From assembly GCF_006542275.1 (NCBI RefSeq), contig NZ_CP041217.1, positions 310,001-374,000 on the forward strand: DNA of 64,000 bases, read 5' to 3'. Every line of letters starts with the position of its first letter. The stretch's first letter is position 1. The notes under the pieces were generated by a model that made no database searches, was not told where the DNA came from, and saw nothing but the letters and a program-made list of their open reading frames with translations. Below are positions 55,144 through 64,000 of this stretch, piece after piece. The translations under genes and the position numbers were made by a program. This DNA is from Saccharibacillus brassicae (lineage in GTDB: Bacteria; Bacillota; Bacilli; Paenibacillales; Paenibacillaceae).

Positions 55144-56247
55144 CTAGAGCTTTCTGCGCACCAGAAAATCCATTTGCGCATCGGCCAGTTCATTATGGGC
55201 CTGTCTCAGTTCCGGCAGCTTTGTGGAGGTCTCCAGTACGCGTTCCGCTTTGCGCAGCGCGCGGCGCAGATCCCCAAAAGCCGAAGGCGGGTATTCGCCG
55301 GTCCGAATGCCTTTCGGCAGATCCATCATCGTCCATATGTTCGCGATTGCTCTTTTTAAATCCTGGTATTCTTCGCTGTTTTGGATCGGGCTATCCAATT
55401 TCAACTCGTTGACCAGATTGGAGTATCTGACCTCAAGATTGCCTTTGGCTACTTTGACCTGGTTGTAAGAAGCGCGGGCTGCGACGATTTGTTCCAGCAG
55501 GGACGTCGACTGTTCGAACGCTTGCAGCGACGCCGAATGATTGGCGGGACTGCCGCTGACCGCGGCAAGTCTCGCCTGAATATCGGCGCGATACTTGGCG
55601 ATCAGAGAAGAATACGTCGAAGCGTCGTAGGTTTCGAGATCGTCGGCTTTGGCGGAAAGAGGCAGATACACTTCCTTGTAGGCTCGCAGCGCATTTCCCT
55701 GGATCGAAGAACCTCCGAGCTGCTCGATCCGGGCCTGCGCGTCCCATACCGCATGCAGTTCGCCCCGTTCGGCCGGCGTCAGCTTGCTCTCGTCCTGATT
55801 GATTCGGCTGTGGTAATAAAGCAGATACCCGAGCGTAGCAAAATGCCGAAGTGCGTCGTAATCCCGCAAATAATAATCGATATAATCGTTGAGCGCTTTC
55901 TCATGCTGCTGCTGCACGGCCGACAATTCCGACTGGGAAGCGGCCGGGTCCGTGACGAGCGTATACGTTTTGTTCTGGATCGCGATCAAATCGTGATACC
56001 GGTAGGAATCGGGATCGAACGTGAATGTGTCGGTCAGCAAAAACATATTTTCCGTTCTCGCGTTCAAATACACGAGTTCGGCCCGCAGCGGATCGGATAA
56101 ATAAGCCAGCGAAGCAGAAGTCGAAGACGCCGCTGCCGGTTCGGCCGCCTGAACCGACGGCTGAAATCCGAATCCGCTAATACCGATCGTGACGGCCAAA
56201 GCGGCCGCCGAAGTACGGGCAAGGAAGGACCTGGAGTATGGATTCAA
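55144..56247 (-). CDS. Secreted helical protein, third paralogue of the quorum-sensing-linked set
   Basis: 367 residues, function unknown. Signal peptide 1-35 (cut near VQAAE). The mature part is almost all helix. Near residue 45 it has AYLSDPLRAELVYLNARTE, and the last 50 residues carry a FIVAR-like pattern (GEYPPSAFGDLRRALRKAERVLE, then L-R-Q-A-H-N-E-L-A-D-A). The two genes upstream encode the same plan. The start is TTG, seven bases after AGGAGG in the conserved context TAGGAGGCT. The Ala-spaced heptads suggest a surface or cell-wall helical bundle. Confidence 0.75.
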   Translation of the reverse strand: MNPYSRSFLARTSAAALAVTIGISGFGFQPSVQAAEPAAASSTSASLAYLSDPLRAELVYLNARTENMFLLTDTFTFDPDSYRYHDLIAIQNKTYTLVTDPAASQSELSAVQQQHEKALNDYIDYYLRDYDALRHFATLGYLLYYHSRINQDESKLTPAERGELHAVWDAQARIEQLGGSSIQGNALRAYKEVYLPLSAKADDLETYDASTYSSLIAKYRADIQARLAAVSGSPANHSASLQAFEQSTSLLEQIVAARASYNQVKVAKGNLEVRYSNLVNELKLDSPIQNSEEYQDLKRAIANIWTMMDLPKGIRTGEYPPSAFGDLRRALRKAERVLETSTKLPELRQAHNELADAQMDFLVRRKL

Positions 56248-56280
56248 AGTACAGCCTCCTAGTTATCGAATGAGCGTACA

Positions 56281-56304
56281 GGGTCCGAACTTCTAGTCGG
56301 ACCC
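56281..56304. other. Perfect hairpin between two paralogous genes
   Basis: Arms GGGTCCGA and TCGGACCC with an eight-base loop, 25 bases after the stop of the second paralogue and 34 before the third. No T-tract, so it could stabilise or process the message, or attenuate. Confidence 0.5.
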
Positions 56305-56328
56305 GATATTGCGTTTTAGGCCTGCGCC

Positions 56329-57438
56329 TTATTGAGCATACGGAAGGTGGGTCTCATAAAATTTCATCAGGGCTTGGTCAAGCTTGGAAGCGGCAATTCC
56401 GTATTCGACACGCGTTTTGGCCTGGCTCAAGTCTTTTTCGGCCGCTTTGAGCACGAGACGGAACTTGCTGACTGCGGTAGCCGGAAATTGGCCGGGCTGA
56501 TTGTCCGTAGGCAGAGCCAGAAGCTCTTTGGAACGCGCGATCAGATTGACCAGCAGATTCCGTTCGCTCGTCGACGAAGTCGGCGGGAGATAGGAGTCGA
56601 GCGCCGCGAGCAGGTTGTCGTACTTCGAACTGATGTATCCGAGGCTGAAATCGACCTTTTTCTGATTGGCCGAAGACGCGAGCAGCTGTTCGAAACTCGA
56701 AATTGCCTGCTCGATCTCCGCCGTGTACGACGAATAATCTTCGGTGCTGCCTGCGGCGACCGCTTTCGCGATATCCTCCTGCACCCATTGCCGATACCGG
56801 CTGATTTGCGAATCATAACGCGTTTTATCGTAAGAAGTCTGCAGATCGAATTCGTTAACCTGTACCGGAATATAATACTTAACGAAAACGTCCCGGTAAT
56901 TTTTGTCCGTTTTGTTTTTTCCCAAAGCCGCTTCCGCCGCCATCACCGCTTCGATAGTACGTTTGTCGGGAGGCGAGAGATGACTATTTTCGTAACTGAC
57001 TCCGCGTAAAATAGCCATTTTCAATTTATAGAAGTAATTGTCTACCCAAAATTCGTCCAATACGATTTCCTGGTAATTTTTCAGTTTTTGCTCGTATTTT
57101 CTCGCAATCGCCTGAAGACGCGCCTGGGACGTAGTCGGGTCCATGACCGCCGCGTAAGCTTCGTTTCGGATCTCCAACAGTTCGTAAACTTCCACACGGT
57201 CGATGGAAGTCGTTTGGGTAGGCCAAGACGAGACCAGCTGCTCGGCTTCCAGATTGATCAGCTTCATCCGGCCGGCATCGTTCAAGTACGCGAAAGCGTC
57301 GGCTTCGGCTGCCTGCGGAGCCGGCGTTTCGGCATGGACAGGCGGAAGTGTGCCGATGCCGCCGAGGGTAATGACGGATGCGAGAGCGGCTGCGGATAAC
57401 ACTTTGAGAGGGGAACGTTTTACGGTTTCGTTGTTCAA
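56329..57438 (-). CDS. Secreted helical protein, second paralogue
   Basis: 369 residues, function unknown. Signal peptide 1-36 (cut near VHAET). It has AFAYLNDAGRMKLINLEAEQL near residue 48 and the C-terminal block GQFPATAVSKFRLVLKAAEKDLSQ, matching the two neighbours in place and type. Helical throughout, no cysteine. TTG start, seven bases after AGGAGG. Same strand and order as the other two, gap of 81 bases to the third; probably one transcript with it. Confidence 0.75.
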   Translation of the reverse strand: MNNETVKRSPLKVLSAAALASVITLGGIGTLPPVHAETPAPQAAEADAFAYLNDAGRMKLINLEAEQLVSSWPTQTTSIDRVEVYELLEIRNEAYAAVMDPTTSQARLQAIARKYEQKLKNYQEIVLDEFWVDNYFYKLKMAILRGVSYENSHLSPPDKRTIEAVMAAEAALGKNKTDKNYRDVFVKYYIPVQVNEFDLQTSYDKTRYDSQISRYRQWVQEDIAKAVAAGSTEDYSSYTAEIEQAISSFEQLLASSANQKKVDFSLGYISSKYDNLLAALDSYLPPTSSTSERNLLVNLIARSKELLALPTDNQPGQFPATAVSKFRLVLKAAEKDLSQAKTRVEYGIAASKLDQALMKFYETHLPYAQ

Positions 57439-57652
57439 GGTAAAGCCTCCTATGTATCGAATGGAAGTGCACGAGCTGATGCCTATACCGGATCTTCGTG
57501 ATCCCGTTCAGACCTTTACTCGCCTTCATTAAATGGAACTTATTGCATATATAAACAGATTACTAAACATTAGAAGCATAAAAAGCCCCCACCCGAAAAT
57601 ATTTTCGCCGTCTTTGTTTTTTGTTCGAAAACGGTTATAGAAAAGAGTTAAT

Positions 57653-57688
57653 AAAAAAGCCTTCCCCCTGCAACGGGAAAGACTTTCG
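57653..57688 (-). terminator. Terminator after the first paralogue
   Basis: Stem with arms AAGTCTTTCCC and GGGGGAAGGCTT on the minus strand, loop GTTGCA, followed by TTTTTT. Confidence 0.75.
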
Positions 57689-57709
57689 GTACCGATCATG
57701 ACGCGAATT

Positions 57710-58915
57710 TTAGGAATTGCGGCTGTTTTTGAACTCCGTGACTGCCGCCGCCAGCGCCTTCCGGGCCTGATTGAGCGGTTCGGTCGTTTTGGACGTTTCG
57801 AGCGCGCGTTCCGCTTTGCCGATCGCGCGTTTGAGCGTTCCGATCTTGGAAGCGCCGTACTGGCCTTTTTCTTTGCCGGCCGGCGAGTCGAGCAGCGGCT
57901 CGGCCGTCTGAATGTCCTGGGCCAGCGTCAGTCCTTCGTTAAGCGCTTCGTACGTCACTTTGACGCTCGCCTGCGCGGCGTCCAACGCGTTTTTGCCTGT
58001 CGAACGTTCGATCGCCGCTTTGAGCGAAGCCGCCGACGTGCGGTACGCCTTGTCCAGCTTGTTCGCCGATTTTGCGTACGAGCCGGCCGCTTCGGTGCGC
58101 GCTTTGATATTCGCTTCGTACTGCGTCAACGCCGTGCTGTAGCTCGCGGGATCGAACGACTGGATATCGTTCGCTTCGGCGGAGCGCAGCAGGAAATGCT
58201 TGTACGCCGACAAGGCTCCCGCTTCGCTGGAATCGGCTTTCAACCGGCTCTGCGCTTCCGTCAATCCTTGAAGCGCCAGCCGTCCGGAAGCGTCCAGTGC
58301 GCTTTCGCTGCGGCCGCCCAAAATCTCGGTCCGCGCCTGCGCCAACAGGTTCGTCACGGCATTCGCGCCGCGAATCGCTTCGTCGTTATACCGGTCGACC
58401 GCTTCTTCCAATTTGCGCGAAGCGGAGAAGACCCGGTCCGCCGGTGCGTTGAGATCCGAAGACACTTCGTTGGCCCGATTGCGCGCTTCGATCAGCTTGA
58501 CCGACTGCTTCTCGGACAAGCCGAGCGCCAGCAGCTTTTCCGTGCGCAGGCTCATGATTTGCAGTTCGATCAGCGCGACGCGCGATACGCCGGCCGAAGC
58601 TTTTTTGGGATCGACCGATACGACAGGCAGGACGACTTCGGCATTCCGCGCCGTCGATCCGCTTGCAGAGCGAACCGGAACCGGCGTAAGAGCAGAAGCT
58701 GCGGCAGAAGAAGCGGACGTTTGCGAAGCAGACAGCTTGGTCGCCGCCGGCGCGGTTTGCTTGGCGGCCGTTTGCGGAGCGCTCGCCGACTGCGTCGTTT
58801 CCGACGGCGCGTCAGCAAATACTTTCGGCAGCGCATACGCACTGCCCGCTACGACGACCGTTGCCAAGACGGCAATCGGCCACTTTTTGCTTTGACCCGT
58901 TTTCTTGTTGTCCAT
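57710..58915 (-). CDS. Secreted helical protein, first paralogue
   Basis: 401 residues, function unknown. Signal peptide or anchor at 13-33 (WPIAVLATVVVAGSAYALP), then an Ala/Ser/Thr-rich linker to about 95, then the shared helical part with VSRVALIELQIMSLRTEKLL and the C-terminal GQYGASKIGTLKRAIGKAERALE. It differs from its two neighbours by the extra linker. The ATG at 58915 follows AGGAGG in the same TAGGAGGCTT context. It is the gene directly downstream of the pro-peptide gene, separated by a terminator. Confidence 0.75.
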   Translation of the reverse strand: MDNKKTGQSKKWPIAVLATVVVAGSAYALPKVFADAPSETTQSASAPQTAAKQTAPAATKLSASQTSASSAAASALTPVPVRSASGSTARNAEVVLPVVSVDPKKASAGVSRVALIELQIMSLRTEKLLALGLSEKQSVKLIEARNRANEVSSDLNAPADRVFSASRKLEEAVDRYNDEAIRGANAVTNLLAQARTEILGGRSESALDASGRLALQGLTEAQSRLKADSSEAGALSAYKHFLLRSAEANDIQSFDPASYSTALTQYEANIKARTEAAGSYAKSANKLDKAYRTSAASLKAAIERSTGKNALDAAQASVKVTYEALNEGLTLAQDIQTAEPLLDSPAGKEKGQYGASKIGTLKRAIGKAERALETSKTTEPLNQARKALAAAVTEFKNSRNS

Positions 58916-58998
58916 GTGAAGCCTCCTATGTATGTACACCCATCTGCACAGTAGTATGGTACTACCTCCTCTTTAACCAATCCAAAAATCCCGAACCT

Positions 58999-59048
58999 AA
59001 AAAAAGCCCCTCTTTTCAGAAAAGGACTGAAAAGAAGCAGCTTTTTTC
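58999..59048 (-). terminator. Terminator after the pro-peptide gene
   Basis: Imperfect 16-base-pair stem (arms AAGCTGCTTCTTTTCAG and CTGAAAAGAGGGGCTT on the minus strand) with seven T residues, 48 bases after the peptide stop. Confidence 0.7.
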
Positions 59049-59095
59049 GAAATCGGCGACTTGCTGCACATAGCTAACAAAATCTCTGATTTATT

Positions 59096-59260
59096 TTACC
59101 ATTCTCCGATGCCAGGACCGTGCAGCGTTATGATTTTTCCTGGTTTTTGCACAGTCGAAGCGGCTTGGGCGTCATTTCCGGCAGGAGCATTGGCGAAAGT
59201 TCCGCTTACGGCTACCGACAACACGAACACGGGAATCAATTTCAACAGATGTTTTTTCAT
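59096..59260 (-). CDS. Small secreted pro-peptide, candidate quorum-sensing signal
   Basis: 54 residues: MKKHLLKLIPVFVLSVAV and SGTF form a classical signal peptide (basic start, hydrophobic core), a cut is likely after AQA or ANA (residues 25-33), and a short tail ends in GKIITLHGPGIGEW. Length, secretion signal and short C-terminal tail match Phr/AimP/AloP-type precursors, whose tail is trimmed to 5-10 residues and reimported. Its ATG overlaps the receptor stop (TAATG), so the two are made together. AGGAGG lies 12 bases upstream. The mature peptide cannot be fixed from sequence; the last 10 or so residues are the best guess. Confidence 0.72.
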   Translation of the reverse strand: MKKHLLKLIPVFVLSVAVSGTFANAPAGNDAQAASTVQKPGKIITLHGPGIGEW

Positions 59261-60621
59261 TATTTGGATAAGCCTCCTACTAATTTTTTATAATGTATTT
59301 TGTGCGCTTCCGAAGCTTGGCTTCTGTATTCTTCGAATAAAGAAACATTGTTCATAAACATTTCCTTGTTAACGATTTTGACAACCACCTCCATTCCTTT
59401 GAGGATGTAATCGAACATTTTTTCATAATCCATTCTTTCAAGGAAATATAGAGCAGCTTGGTAGCATGTTCCACAATACAGATTATAACTGATTATGCTT
59501 TTGTCGTGATGAAATTGTTGGGTTAAATAATTCGCGATAGAGCCGGAAAATTCTTCGAAAAGAATATCGGCGTCGTACTTGTATGTATTGGCGGATTTCA
59601 AAATGGAAAAAGTAAATTGCAGCAGCTCATTCGGATTATCTTTCATAAAAGAAATGCAGGTCGCCAATATATTTTCGTTCCCGATCAAGAGTTCCAGGTT
59701 CAAGCGATTGGCCAGGGCATAAAATTTGAATTTTTCGACTTCTTTCAAGCCTTCTTCATCCAGCCCGATAAACCAGCTTAGATCTTCATACCCTTGAATG
59801 TACCGTTCGGCTTCTTCAAAATCATTTTGCTGAATCCTGATATTTTGCATGCACATCAGACCGTAGCCGTAGTACACAACCAACGGATATCTGCCGGCAA
59901 GCGTAGGCTCGCGGGAATCTGCCCCCAATCTTTCCGCTTGATTCTTATAAATGATACTGGAAAATTTATTGAGCGCTATCGAATATTTCTCCGCTTCCGC
60001 ATACTTATCGAGCGAAAAATACACGTTCACCAGCTTCATCAGCCCGTCCAGCCGATGATGGTCCGGCAGCTTTTCGCAGAACGGTTCGAACTCGATCGCC
60101 GCTCGCAGATTCTGTTCGTTATCTTCGCCGAGAGCCGCACGGAACAACCGGTAATGGCTGATGGCCAGACGCTCCGACTGGTGGTACTTCTCGTTCTGCA
60201 CGATGCAGCGGTAAAAAACGACCGATTCCTTGATGCTGCCGCTCGCATACAACGCTTCCGCAATGTCAAAGATCGTATCGAGTTGGCGCAGGTCTTCGAG
60301 CAGCCGGGACAGCACCTCCTCGATGCATTCGTTTCGCCCGAGTGCGGCGCAGCGGAGCAGAAAAGGCTCCACCCTGCGGCGATTCGGCCGACCGTCGTAA
60401 AAGCATTCGTTGATGTACACTTCGAACATCCACCCGTCTTCGCGCCCGAGCGCGCGGCCGATTCTTTCCAGTTGGTTGAGCGAAATCGGTTTGGGCGGAT
60501 TGCTGTTCAGTATAGCGCTGAAAATCCCCCGGTTAATCCCCGACCACTCGCCAAACTCCGAAAAATTCATGCCCATGCCCGCGATCCCTTTTTCAATTTC
60601 GGAACGCAGCGTCATTTCCAT
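59260..60621 (-). CDS. HTH-TPR receptor of the RNPP type (AimR/Rap/PlcR-like), candidate peptide-sensing regulator
   Basis: 453 residues. Residues 1-70 are a Cro/C1-type helix-turn-helix (IEKGIAGMGMNFSEFGEWSGINRGIFSAILN), the rest about nine TPR-like helical pairs (SERLAISHYRLFRAALGED, RLDGLMKLVNVYFSLDKYAEAEKYSIALN, YLTQQFHHDKSIISYNLYCG). This is the layout of AimR, PlcR and NprR. AimR-like receptors with adjacent peptide genes are known in Paenibacillus polymyxa as Alo systems. The peptide gene overlaps its stop. ATG at 60621 lies eight bases after AAAGAGG; the GTG three codons upstream overlaps that site. Two direct repeats upstream may be its operator. Confidence 0.82.
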   Translation of the reverse strand: MEMTLRSEIEKGIAGMGMNFSEFGEWSGINRGIFSAILNSNPPKPISLNQLERIGRALGREDGWMFEVYINECFYDGRPNRRRVEPFLLRCAALGRNECIEEVLSRLLEDLRQLDTIFDIAEALYASGSIKESVVFYRCIVQNEKYHQSERLAISHYRLFRAALGEDNEQNLRAAIEFEPFCEKLPDHHRLDGLMKLVNVYFSLDKYAEAEKYSIALNKFSSIIYKNQAERLGADSREPTLAGRYPLVVYYGYGLMCMQNIRIQQNDFEEAERYIQGYEDLSWFIGLDEEGLKEVEKFKFYALANRLNLELLIGNENILATCISFMKDNPNELLQFTFSILKSANTYKYDADILFEEFSGSIANYLTQQFHHDKSIISYNLYCGTCYQAALYFLERMDYEKMFDYILKGMEVVVKIVNKEMFMNNVSLFEEYRSQASEAHKIHYKKLVGGLSK

Positions 60622-61045
60622 TTCCCGCACCTCTTTCGCTTAAACCCGTCCTGTATATGAAGCTTATCAGTTAATGTTTTCCTTACAATTAATTTACAAT
60701 ATACAGAATAAATAAACATTGGTCAATTTCTTTTTTTACCCAATTATACTGCACGATTGTATACTGCAAGTCTTTCGCAGCAAGCTTTCCCAAAAACAGA
60801 ACACGTTTTCTGAACTGACCCCCGAGTCACGCATGAATATGCAGTTTTCTGATATTTTAAAATGATAGTAATAATACGGTTTGAAGCTTATTGCTAGACA
60901 TTATTTGTTTTTGAGATATCGCTTTCATAGAGGAAAAGCTTTTGCTCAACTGTCCGCCGGGCGAAGACAAAGATAAGCAAACGGTCTTGAACGCAAACAT
61001 GCATCCGGGGAACGTTCAGCTCCGTCGAATGCATGCGGTCTCGAA
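60622..61045. other. AT-rich upstream region of the receptor gene
   Basis: 424 bases, clearly richer in A and T than the left part of the window. It should hold the receptor promoter. The only order I see is the TATACTGCA repeat and TATACAGA near 60700. No gene with a ribosome binding site is found. Confidence 0.5.
60745..60768 (-). promoter_or_regulatory. Direct repeats, possible receptor-binding site
   Basis: TATACTGCA occurs at 60745-60753 and 60760-60768, a 15-base period, about 130 bases before the receptor start; a related TATACAGA lies near 60700. Role inferred from place only. Confidence 0.35.
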
Positions 61046-61216
61046 TCATTTCTCTTCCTCGCGGGAATCGGACTCGCCGGAATGGGTCTCCGCCTGCGAC
61101 AATACCGATCCGGCCAGCGACTTGGCTTTCTTCTCCGCCGATTTGTCATGCAGTACCTTGGAAGCCAGAGCCGACATTTTCTTCGAAGAATGCTTCCCGT
61201 CATGGTTGTTGGACAT
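61046..61216 (-). CDS. Small basic-acidic protein with K-A-K-S-L-A-G-S-x-L-S-Q motif
   Basis: 56 residues: MSNNHDGKHSSKKMSALASK, then VLHDKSAEKKAKSLAGSVLS and a glutamate-rich tail. Small proteins with this motif occur widely and have no known function. No signal peptide. GGGAGGTGATACAG before the ATG is an excellent ribosome binding site, which supports expression despite the small size. It lies 79 bases after the SMC-like gene on the same strand and may be its last operon member, and about 425 bases before the receptor gene. Confidence 0.7.
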   Translation of the reverse strand: MSNNHDGKHSSKKMSALASKVLHDKSAEKKAKSLAGSVLSQAETHSGESDSREEEK

Positions 61217-61294
61217 CTGTATCACCTCCCATACGTCGAAATAACCGGTTTGGGCGGTGGGGAAACTTTTGACGAGTAATTAGCCTTCCCTTTT

Positions 61295-64000
61295 TTAAAA
61301 CAGATTCAACGGCCTCGGTTCGCCCAAATAGGCTATCGTCTCCGGATTGAGATCCCGAAAATATGCCTGATTCATGCTCTGCTGCTGATCCACAATCTGT
61401 TTACTTGAATCTCCTGCCGCGCCGCGCAGCCTACAGCTGTACAAAATCGGGAAATAATCGTGCAGAAATTTTCCTTCCGCATGCGCGGTCAAGGCAATGA
61501 TTTGAAAACCCAATTGTTCGGCAATATAGAAAACGGGACTTAGTACATGTTCGCTGGAAGCTTTGCCGAACGGATTGTCGAGGATCACGGATCGGTGTCT
61601 CGGCATATCCCCCTGGATCGGCTGTCGCTTCTCGGCCACGTAGTTAAGCAGCCCCAGAAAAAGCGCCATGTTTTTGCTCCAACGTTCACCGCCGGACCAA
61701 GAGTTCGACGTTTCCCAGCTGTATGCCGCCGACGTTACCCGGTTGTCGTTGCTCACTTTTCGGCATTGAATACGGATCGCGTTTTCGCCCAGTACTTTGA
61801 ACAGCAGTTGCTTGGAATCCAGCCACTTTTCAAGGTCTTTGCGTACAATCGTGTCTTGCGATTCCCCATGGTCATCTATATACCTCGATCCGTCTAGTTG
61901 ACGGCTGATCCAGTCAATATGATTCTGGATTTTCTCACGAGCGATTTTCTCTTCCCACTGCGGAATTCGGAAAGAATAGATCTCCTTTGTTCCTTCGCTC
62001 GTTTTGACTCTCGTCTTTTTCGGAATTTCGCCGAGCTCTTGAGCCAGCTGCTTCAAATGATTGTGAATACGCGTGATATAATGCTGCAACTTTTTATCTT
62101 CGGCCTGCATATAGGTTTCGGCAACTTGGTTGGCTCGCAGCAAATTTTGTTTAAGCAGACGTTTGAATTCTTGCAGTTCGGCGTATTCTTGAGTTTCGGA
62201 GACTCCGTTTTTGGCCATCTGGCTTTGCTTGAGATCTGCAACCTGTTTATCGCAAAAATCGATGAAACGCTTTTTACTTGCGTCAGCTTTGCGTTTTTCT
62301 TCGTCGACTTTGCGCCTTTGTTCTTCAAGCCTATGCACAGTAGCTTTGCTGTGTTCAAGCATATCGTACAACCAGTCGTTTTGTTCGGACAACGATAGTT
62401 CGGTAGACTCTGTTTTTAGTGCTGGATTTTCGAGGTCGTGCACTCGAAGCTGCAGCAGCCATACTTCGCGGGATTTGGAAATACCGGCATGCTGTTTTCG
62501 CGCTGCTGTTATGAGCTCGTTCAGACGATTTTCTTCTTGCTCCAAACGTCGCTCCTCCTCAAATGCCCGTTCTTCTACGCGGCTTAATGGTTCAAGGAAA
62601 ACAATCGCATCTTTACCACCGAACTGCTCTTTGTATCGTTCTTGCTCTGATTTCAAAATTCCAGCCTGCTGCTGATAATATTTATTTCTCCGATCTTTTT
62701 CCAATGCAAGTAAGTCACTTTTTTCTTTGCTTGTCTGAATCCTGCTCCACAGCTCTTCTACCTGCTCTTCTGCCCGCGAAGAAAGTTCAAGTATTTGATC
62801 GAGCGAAGAATACTGTTGAAGCATACGATTCATCAGTTTGTCCGCTTGCTCTTTGGCCGTCCGGTAACGTCCAATTTCCCGTTCTAGTCCAACGCGATCG
62901 GTCGCAACCTTGTTACGCTGCCGTTCAAGATCCCTTCGGACTTCTTGAAGCATAGGCAGCGTAAATTCGTTTTCCAAAGGAAATTCTGATGCGACCGCTG
63001 TATAAAGCTCTTGCTGCCGCCAATATTTAAGCTCTACAGACAATTCCTTCAGATGACCTTCCTTCTTTTTTTGCTCTTCTATACGCTCAGATACGATATT
63101 CTGTGCATCCTGCAAAGCTTGTTCCTGATGCTTGAGCTTGACGAACAAATCTCGGCGATTCCGATCCAATTCGGCTATTTTTCGTTCAAGTGCAAGATAG
63201 CGATTTCCTAGATCCATTTTCCTCTCAAGATCAATAATCTGCTGTCTGGAAAGCTCCTGTTTTTGCTGAAGCTCTTTCTGCTCCTGTTCAGTGCGAATTT
63301 CGTCCACCGCTTGAACATCAAGACGTTTTTCCAGAGTGTTTTCTCGGGCTGCAACTTCGTTTCGACGTAGCTCCGAGGCATGGCGCTCTTCGTTTGGATA
63401 ACGTTTCAACAGCTCGTCAAGTTGACGCTCCCCGCCTTGCCACTCCTGAAGTTCCCGTTCTTTAGCCATTCGCACACGTTCTGCGTGTCCTGCACGCTCT
63501 GCCGCCCCGCTTTTCCAAGCTTCGAAGACAGCCCGATCTTCAAACGAACGCCACAACAAGGGTTCAACCCAGTTGCCGTCATTCAAATCAGAAGCTTCAT
63601 TTCGAATATCTCGGGCTTCGTCCACACTCAGCACTCGAACCGGAAACTGAAGGCGATCCGCGACCTCAACGATTTTGCTCTTCAGCTTTTCCTTTTCATG
63701 AGTCGTCGTAATCAGGGTTAACGCCCAAATTTTTTCACCAAGATCGGATTCTTCATGCTGCTGTGCATACTCGACGCCGGACTGCAGCAGCGAAAACTGA
63801 CCGCTCCATCTGCGCAGCAGCTCGAAAGCGTAAGGATCGGCGAAAAAAGTTTCCTGCTCGCCGTAATCGTCCACATGACGCCGAGCCAGTCGTTCCTGAC
63901 GATACAAATCGTCTTTTTGCGCTGCTTTGGATTCAATCTCCCGCATCATTCGCTGGCGAATCGATTCCTCTTTTTCCGGAATAGAGACCAATCTGGCCCA
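61295..64000 (-). CDS. SMC-like ATPase, C-terminal 901 residues, cut by window edge
   Basis: The frame is open to the window edge. Most of it is charged coiled coil; the last 135 residues are the C-terminal half of an ABC-type head: signature SWSGGERWSKNMALFLGLLN, Walker B RSVILDNPFG, H-loop ALTAHAEG. The N-terminal half with Walker A must lie beyond 64000. This is the SMC/Rad50/MukB build, in which head halves meet after a long hairpin. SMC-like ATPases occur in plasmid-defence (Wadjet) and other immune systems and in chromosome maintenance; which applies is not known. AT-rich sequence and isolation suggest acquisition. No TOPRIM nuclease gene follows, unlike Wadjet. Confidence 0.8.
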   Translation of the reverse strand, partial: WARLVSIPEKEESIRQRMMREIESKAAQKDDLYRQERLARRHVDDYGEQETFFADPYAFELLRRWSGQFSLLQSGVEYAQQHEESDLGEKIWALTLITTTHEKEKLKSKIVEVADRLQFPVRVLSVDEARDIRNEASDLNDGNWVEPLLWRSFEDRAVFEAWKSGAAERAGHAERVRMAKERELQEWQGGERQLDELLKRYPNEERHASELRRNEVAARENTLEKRLDVQAVDEIRTEQEQKELQQKQELSRQQIIDLERKMDLGNRYLALERKIAELDRNRRDLFVKLKHQEQALQDAQNIVSERIEEQKKKEGHLKELSVELKYWRQQELYTAVASEFPLENEFTLPMLQEVRRDLERQRNKVATDRVGLEREIGRYRTAKEQADKLMNRMLQQYSSLDQILELSSRAEEQVEELWSRIQTSKEKSDLLALEKDRRNKYYQQQAGILKSEQERYKEQFGGKDAIVFLEPLSRVEERAFEEERRLEQEENRLNELITAARKQHAGISKSREVWLLQLRVHDLENPALKTESTELSLSEQNDWLYDMLEHSKATVHRLEEQRRKVDEEKRKADASKKRFIDFCDKQVADLKQSQMAKNGVSETQEYAELQEFKRLLKQNLLRANQVAETYMQAEDKKLQHYITRIHNHLKQLAQELGEIPKKTRVKTSEGTKEIYSFRIPQWEEKIAREKIQNHIDWISRQLDGSRYIDDHGESQDTIVRKDLEKWLDSKQLLFKVLGENAIRIQCRKVSNDNRVTSAAYSWETSNSWSGGERWSKNMALFLGLLNYVAEKRQPIQGDMPRHRSVILDNPFGKASSEHVLSPVFYIAEQLGFQIIALTAHAEGKFLHDYFPILYSCRLRGAAGDSSKQIVDQQQSMNQAYFRDLNPETIAYLGEPRPLNLF

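Follow-up and report, generated by a model that had tools for sequence, protein, structure and literature searches.

The overlapping gene pair described here is very probably an AloR-AloP peptide signalling pair of Saccharibacillus that works by the full mechanism set out below. It consists of a receptor gene and, at the 3′ end of that gene, a small frame for a secreted propeptide, and it lies within a stretch of 64,000 nucleotides that was analysed as a whole (the window). By all sequence evidence, the receptor and the small secreted-peptide frame are a genuine signalling pair. Sequence comparison supported membership of the AloR-AloP family of Paenibacillaceae, which has already been described (Voichek 2020); the main text of that study already names Saccharibacillus among the AloR-bearing genera (PMC7425212). 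A first-pass annotation had proposed an RNPP-like receptor-propeptide arrangement, and this is still the best reading, specifically of the Alo kind of RRNPP system. What appears to be new, judging from the sequences compared, is a clade of propeptide tails ending in GxGx[WF], a frozen promoter block, and a fixed DNA site set against a changing signal.

The features of the locus are collected in Table 1. As first annotated, a 453-residue protein is followed through TAATG by a 54-residue frame; both genes are on the minus strand, which had gone unmentioned. At the junction, the receptor's stop codon TAA (59262-59260) and the ATG of the small frame have A59260 in common. The receptor length of 453 residues follows from the ATG start, and an in-frame GTG at 60630 would make it 456. 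RNA folding of the terminator region (58985-59060) gave -31.6 kcal/mol with a z of -4.52, and the terminator was graded strong. As a chance control, every ORF of at least 100 residues on either strand of the window was examined for a signal-type ATG frame, 30-70 residues long, within 20 nt of its end. Only 1 of 177 ORF ends had one; with four signal-type ATG starts on both strands of the window, the expectation is ~0.0013 per ORF end, and the overlapping frame is therefore beyond chance. We regard conservation as the more telling argument that the small frame is real. A pattern scan of named genomes returned five relatives of the receptor, all from Saccharibacillus and 59-69% identical to it. 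Their frames have 51-57 residues and start between -20 and +4 nt from the receptor stop; all five open with MKK and all five end in GxGx[WF].

Table 1. Features of the receptor-propeptide locus (window coordinates).
Feature	Position	Strand	Basis
aloR-type receptor gene, 453 aa	59260..60621	(-)	ORF and translation, model, orthologues at 59-69% identity
aloP-type propeptide gene, 54 aa	59260..59096	(-)	translation; kept in 6/6 orthologues; chance control
Predicted signal sequence, residues 1-33	59162..59260	(-)	read from translation; hydrophobic peak 2.83
HGPGIGEW, last eight residues; candidate for mature peptide (6-8 residues)	59099..59122	(-)	
Ribosome-binding site AGGAGG of propeptide, within the receptor's end	59273..59278	(-)	sequence
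Intrinsic terminator 3′ of propeptide gene	59009..59037	(-)	terminator search and RNA fold
Promoter TTGACC-17-TATATT of receptor-propeptide pair	60698..60726	(-)	both hexamers invariant in 6/6 orthologues
36-bp invariant block, promoter spacer to past -10; proposed AloR operator	60682..60717	(-)	six species
Inverted repeat RTGAC-N6-GTCAK	60815..60830	(-)	in 5/6 orthologues
ATTATTACTA	60866..60875	(-)	invariant in 6/6 orthologues

The propeptide (MKKHLLKLIPVFVLSVAVSGTFANAPAGNDAQAASTVQKPGKIITLHGPGIGEW) has a basic start (MKKHLLK), a hydrophobic core and A-x-A sites after A25 and A33, the signal sequence and cleavage sites being judged by eye from the translation. The signal peptide claimed in the first-pass annotation stands as a signal-type frame; the tail, given there as 20 residues, would have 21 if the cut falls after A33, as we predict. 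A Pfam search returned a single match below the cut-off, to DUF6520 (residues 1-45, E 0.00053, 20.7 of 25.4 bits), and this mainly spans the signal sequence. Searches of NCBIfam and PHROGs gave no family up to E 1. The small frame had also been thought too short for the usual gene callers, which holds only in part. Frames after the second receptor of L072, in L073 and in L074 are indeed absent from the PLSDB gene table (itself incomplete), but the comparable 43-aa frame on the plasmid of P. polymyxa ATCC 842 is annotated.

The helix-turn-helix (HTH) and TPR-like character of the receptor, also proposed earlier, is weak in its own sequence: Pfam gave TPR_10 at E 0.065 and HTH_26 at E 0.21, both below the cut-off. 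It becomes plain from the relatives and the helical model. Among 32 aligned members, 13 matched HTH_26 and 14 matched TPR_2 at E 0.01. L024 was dropped from this alignment (A1, 32 rows) because it nearly duplicates L021, and neither the second receptor of L067 (4716-6050) nor any extra receptor of L014-L019, L030, L034 and L038 is part of it. The model (mean pLDDT 90.1, pTM 0.84) is all helical, with an N-terminal HTH bundle at about residues 5-57 (helices 5-15, 20-27, 31-39 and 48-57) and then a C-terminal TPR-like helical array. Foldseek with this model returned mostly TPR proteins, and LGN alone reached E <=0.001 among the matches listed. AimR (5zw5, 6jg5, 5zw6, 6hp3) and the phage Rap 8rtc were among the best 50, with E 0.01-0.03 and TM-scores of 0.25-0.39 by query length; the AimR matches were weak, reaching TM 0.25-0.29 (by query length) at E 0.01-0.02. 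Such low-scoring fold matches support a predicted HTH-TPR architecture and no close relation to AimR. A single-sequence search of the PDB produced one match, at chance level.

AloR-AloP systems are described as HTH-TPR receptors with a propeptide gene at the 3′ end, and AloP13, whose active peptide is SHGRGG, acts through its receptor (PMC7425212, main text). The window's pair is similar in its HTH-TPR receptor, in the short ORF with a predicted signal sequence immediately downstream, in a Gly-rich tail (as in AloP13 SHGRGG), and in the occurrence of several copies per genome, orphans included. It differs in that its tail ends in GxGx[WF], in a promoter block known so far from Saccharibacillus alone, and in having no adjoining spo0E-like gene: three Spo0E-like genes are present in the genome, none of them in the window. 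A spo0E-like neighbour is a feature of only some Alo systems and does not define the family; the main text of the Alo study places one at only 6 Alo systems of P. polymyxa (PMC7425212).

Homology extends over the full length of the receptor to proteins of other Paenibacillaceae, including the Alo reference strain, P. polymyxa ATCC 842, where the comparison was with a plasmid receptor. That receptor is 29% identical (E 8e-47) and has an overlapping signal-type frame of 43 residues with the tail GYIGGA. Two plasmid receptors of B. laterosporus LMG 15441 are 36-38% identical, the best at 38% with E 1e-89, and their tails are YEHGVGG and YGHGMGG; the YGHGMGG frame is followed by a Spo0E-family gene. 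Alignments to the ATCC 842 and LMG 15441 receptors cover 98-99% of the window's. The RRNPP_detector article treats AloR as a known subfamily, and one of the AloR-AloP systems it reports lies on an LMG 15441 plasmid (PMC10075063). Together with a receptor on a P. polymyxa M1 plasmid (32% identity, tail VQHGGF), a frame was present at 4 of 4 plasmid receptors examined in named records. GxG occurs in 2 of these 4 tails and is missing from those of the ATCC 842 and M1 plasmids. In the one phage examined, Brevibacillus phage SecTim467, the homologue (31%) has no signal-type frame, and the next frame annotated differs in kind.

Other peptide-sensing families were considered. AimR-AimP of Bacillus phages resembles the pair in its HTH and TPR superhelix, its adjoining propeptide gene and the fold matches. 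However, the window's pair is chromosomal, at a conserved site beside thrS and a jetC-like gene, no AimR was among the PDB sequence matches of the receptor, and PHROGs gave no match. We therefore rejected arbitrium membership, on the chromosomal setting and the weak AimR fold matches as well. Rap-Phr, NprR-NprX and PlcR-PapR share the order of receptor and then secreted propeptide, and the phage Rap 8rtc was among the best 50 fold matches; in contrast, none of them appeared among the PDB sequence matches of the receptor. Rap works by protein contact and not via an HTH.

A receptor match was present in 46 of 147 genomes around the window's (its own included), among the matches listed, and in 30 of those 46 the locus of the best hit was retrieved. 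A frame was counted when its hydrophobic peak exceeded 1.6 and its start fell between -80 and +160 nt from the receptor stop, the signal-type one being chosen by eye. On this basis, 26 of the 30 best-hit receptors (window included) have a signal-type 3′ frame, starting with ATG in 23 cases and with GTG or TTG in 3; the four without are L021, L023, L024 and L032. Homologues consistently lacking the frame, which the first-pass annotation said would speak against the pair, are thus not the pattern seen, and in the orthologue group the frame is present in 6 of 6. The expectation of a small frame at each homologous receptor held for most of these best hits, but not for further receptors in the fetched loci, where it was found at 1 of 14 (L002). 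The 13 frameless ones are two in L067, two in L034 (one of them a fragment) and those of L038, L014-L019, L030 and L066; additional receptors of L068 and receptors running off a locus were left out of this count. Orphan receptors are therefore common in the AloR-type family.

In the tree, the window's receptor, its five orthologues, L010 and the orphan L066 form one clade (support 100/99). The window's genome carries four receptors of the AloR-type family, two of them with a frame. As a separate observation, three aloR-type receptors stand in tandem at L067:2881-7416 (G000:C1 ~2086880-2091415), where the first receptor alone has the promoter core and a propeptide, whose tail is VNGVGT.

The tails of the five orthologues end in TIPGQGEW, GVPGIGGW, GTSGIGAW, SGGGLGTW and GGGGIGSF, so that GxGx[WF] is common to all six, the window included. 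A further receptor of the same genus, L010, has the tail GPDGIGQF, and GxGx[WF] ends all 7 of 7 tails in the clade of the window's receptor. Among homologues with a frame, window included, 23 of 26 tails contain GxG within the last eight residues, where ~4% would be expected, given how much Gly the stretch from residue 20 to the last eight contains. In the tails compared, it is the aromatic cap GxGx[WF] that distinguishes this clade, not GxG itself. The earlier impression that the tail is unlike known peptides had to be abandoned, given AloP13 SHGRGG and the frequency of GxG here. A secreted small effector would also suit the signal sequence and the Gly-rich tail, and receptor binding is only predicted; the small frame could on that account be a secreted or membrane-active peptide (bacteriocin-like, or a small toxin) under the HTH protein's control rather than a sensed signal. 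We consider this very improbable, since the pair arrangement and a short GxG tail recur beside homologous receptors, a terminator directly after the propeptide frame leaves no further gene in the unit, and AloP13, of the same family, acts through its receptor (PMC7425212, main text).

The promoter TTGACC-17-TATATT has 10 of 12 consensus bases, and sites of this quality are about equally frequent in shuffles. From TTGACC on, 45 of 50 columns are invariant in six species, 36 of them in a row. For comparison, invariance was seen at 8 of 59 four-fold sites within the receptor genes, and in the region further upstream at 37 of 257 columns. The promoter core TGTATATTGTAAATTA (16 bp) has 15 exact copies in 16 Saccharibacillus genomes, and all 15 lie within ~130 bp upstream of aloR-type genes, among the matches listed. 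Five copies have one mismatch: two lie upstream of receptors, one is inside a receptor gene (G009) and two are near no receptor among the matches listed. The reversed core, used as a control, gave 2 matches with up to one mismatch. This confinement of the core to promoters of aloR-type genes suggests autoregulation of the pair. A broad regulon was tried and rejected: in the window's genome a 20-base promoter pattern is exact only twice, both times before aloR-type genes, with two more matches at 3 mismatches and 1 for the reversed control. An Rfam scan of 58700-61300 found no structured RNA at E 0.1.

Based upon these observations, we predict, with somewhat more confidence than doubt, that the 36-bp block is the AloR operator. 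It may instead be the site of another regulator or merely a strong promoter, with the receptor acting elsewhere, a less favoured possibility that nevertheless deserves weight: TTGACC-17-TATATT alone is a good sigma-A type promoter, and further conserved elements stand upstream of the block. Against this, the spacer and the downstream bases are invariant as well, in a run of 36 bp, and every exact copy of the core stands at an aloR-type promoter (15/15, among the matches listed). Outside Saccharibacillus the promoter core is absent or reduced, and it was not found before the six receptor-type genes examined from a phage and from plasmids of Paenibacillus and Brevibacillus; the block thus argues for autoregulation only within Saccharibacillus. 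The two exact copies of TGTATATTGTAAATTA in the window's genome precede the window's receptor and a paralogue with a propeptide (tail VNGVGT). The first 75 columns of these two receptors are 76% identical, and there is perhaps cross-talk between the two pairs. The words motif, operator and binding site do not occur in the main text of the Alo study (PMC7425212), so that a predicted AloR site would render the regulation of the family directly testable. Among the titles and abstract openings retrieved for Saccharibacillus and quorum sensing, only Voichek concerned peptide signalling.

Across the six orthologues, mean pairwise identity of the receptor falls from 91% (residues 1-75) to 37-46% (residues 226-453). 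An HTH that is nearly fixed and a C-terminal half that has diverged are what a constant DNA target combined with a changing ligand would lead one to expect, and the receptor series would thus combine fixed DNA reading with changing ligand reading. In the mechanism we propose, one promoter would drive the receptor and propeptide as an overlapping pair, ending at the terminator. The propeptide would be exported via its signal sequence (Sec route) and trimmed outside, and its C-terminal 6-8 residues (a hexa- to octapeptide within HGPGIGEW, AloP13 SHGRGG being a precedent of six residues) would re-enter via an oligopeptide permease; ten Opp-type binding-protein matches lie above the cut-off in the window's genome. 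The peptide would then dock in the receptor's C-terminal TPR half and alter the action of the receptor on DNA, where the target best backed by conservation would be the pair's own promoter, at the 36-bp block. The sequences themselves show the gene anatomy and its conservation, the homology to receptors of the Alo reference strain, and the frozen block with its confinement to aloR-type promoters in the genus; the steps of signalling, from export and processing through uptake and peptide binding to autoregulation (and its sign), we infer by analogy with Alo13 and other RRNPP systems. More tentatively, and with more doubt than confidence, the series could be one in which the DNA address is frozen while the words change: each species would use a private GxGx[WF] dialect for the same, mainly self-directed switch, in a pair gained or lost at one site. 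The orthologues are a natural series for following joint change of peptide and receptor at a constant DNA site. They also give a known but little-studied signalling family a clean, single-genus set of orthologous pairs, and they supply concrete peptides for synthesis together with a candidate operator.

The order at the site is a 59-residue gene, the pair, gene 57710-58939, two relatives of the latter, and thrS. Gene 57710-58939 is exported by eye and lies downstream on the same strand in 6 of 6 orthologous loci; in L034 and L038, further receptor genes intervene before its homologue. This arrangement raises the possibility that the pair is real and its main output is gene 57710-58939, as in Alo13, where the peptide SHGRGG reduces expression of the adjoining spo0E-like gene (PMC7425212, main text). 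We think this unlikely: a strong terminator stands between the pair and the gene, the aloR promoter pattern was not found before it (up to 3 mismatches), and G002 and G008, without a pair at this site, retain both the gene and the element GGTAGNACCATACTAC upstream of it, the gene being present in G014 as well. Gene 57710-58939 as the sole output was rejected, as it is present where the pair is missing.

By ThrS identity (87%, as for G007), G002 and G008 belong with the nearest species; they keep the 59-residue gene, the 57710-58939 homologue and thrS, and the pair is replaced by other sequence, which by eye encodes a small lipoprotein on the opposite strand. The jetC-like gene is kept in G002; in the part of the G008 locus that was extracted it was not found. 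In G014 the pair is missing at the site and the 57710-58939 homologue is present, and G013 has a diverged receptor there (L066) without peptide and without promoter core. Since G002, G008 and G014 have no pair at the site, the signalling module is dispensable, and since the downstream gene persists without the pair, that gene needs no module.

Several further features were noted around the site. The promoter region of gene 57710-58939 contains an inverted repeat, GTAGTA-N3-TACTAC (58948-58963), which is largely retained in relatives with or without the signalling pair. Three mutually related proteins (20-30% identity), exported by eye, are encoded in a row before thrS (55144-58939, minus strand); they have no Pfam match above the cut-off and many further copies in genomes of the genus. 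At 61295-64000 (minus strand) the window holds 898 residues of a JetC3-type protein, its C-terminal part; given the match to PADLOC JetC3 (E 1.8e-269), the immediate upstream neighbour of the pair appears to be a Wadjet type III system. Near the same site, translated ORFs at L064:82-3954 (G008) and L037:1061-1540 resemble CRISPR repeats by eye, with Cas genes also seen by eye in L064, and the CRISPR-like ORFs suggest a spot of frequent gene exchange.
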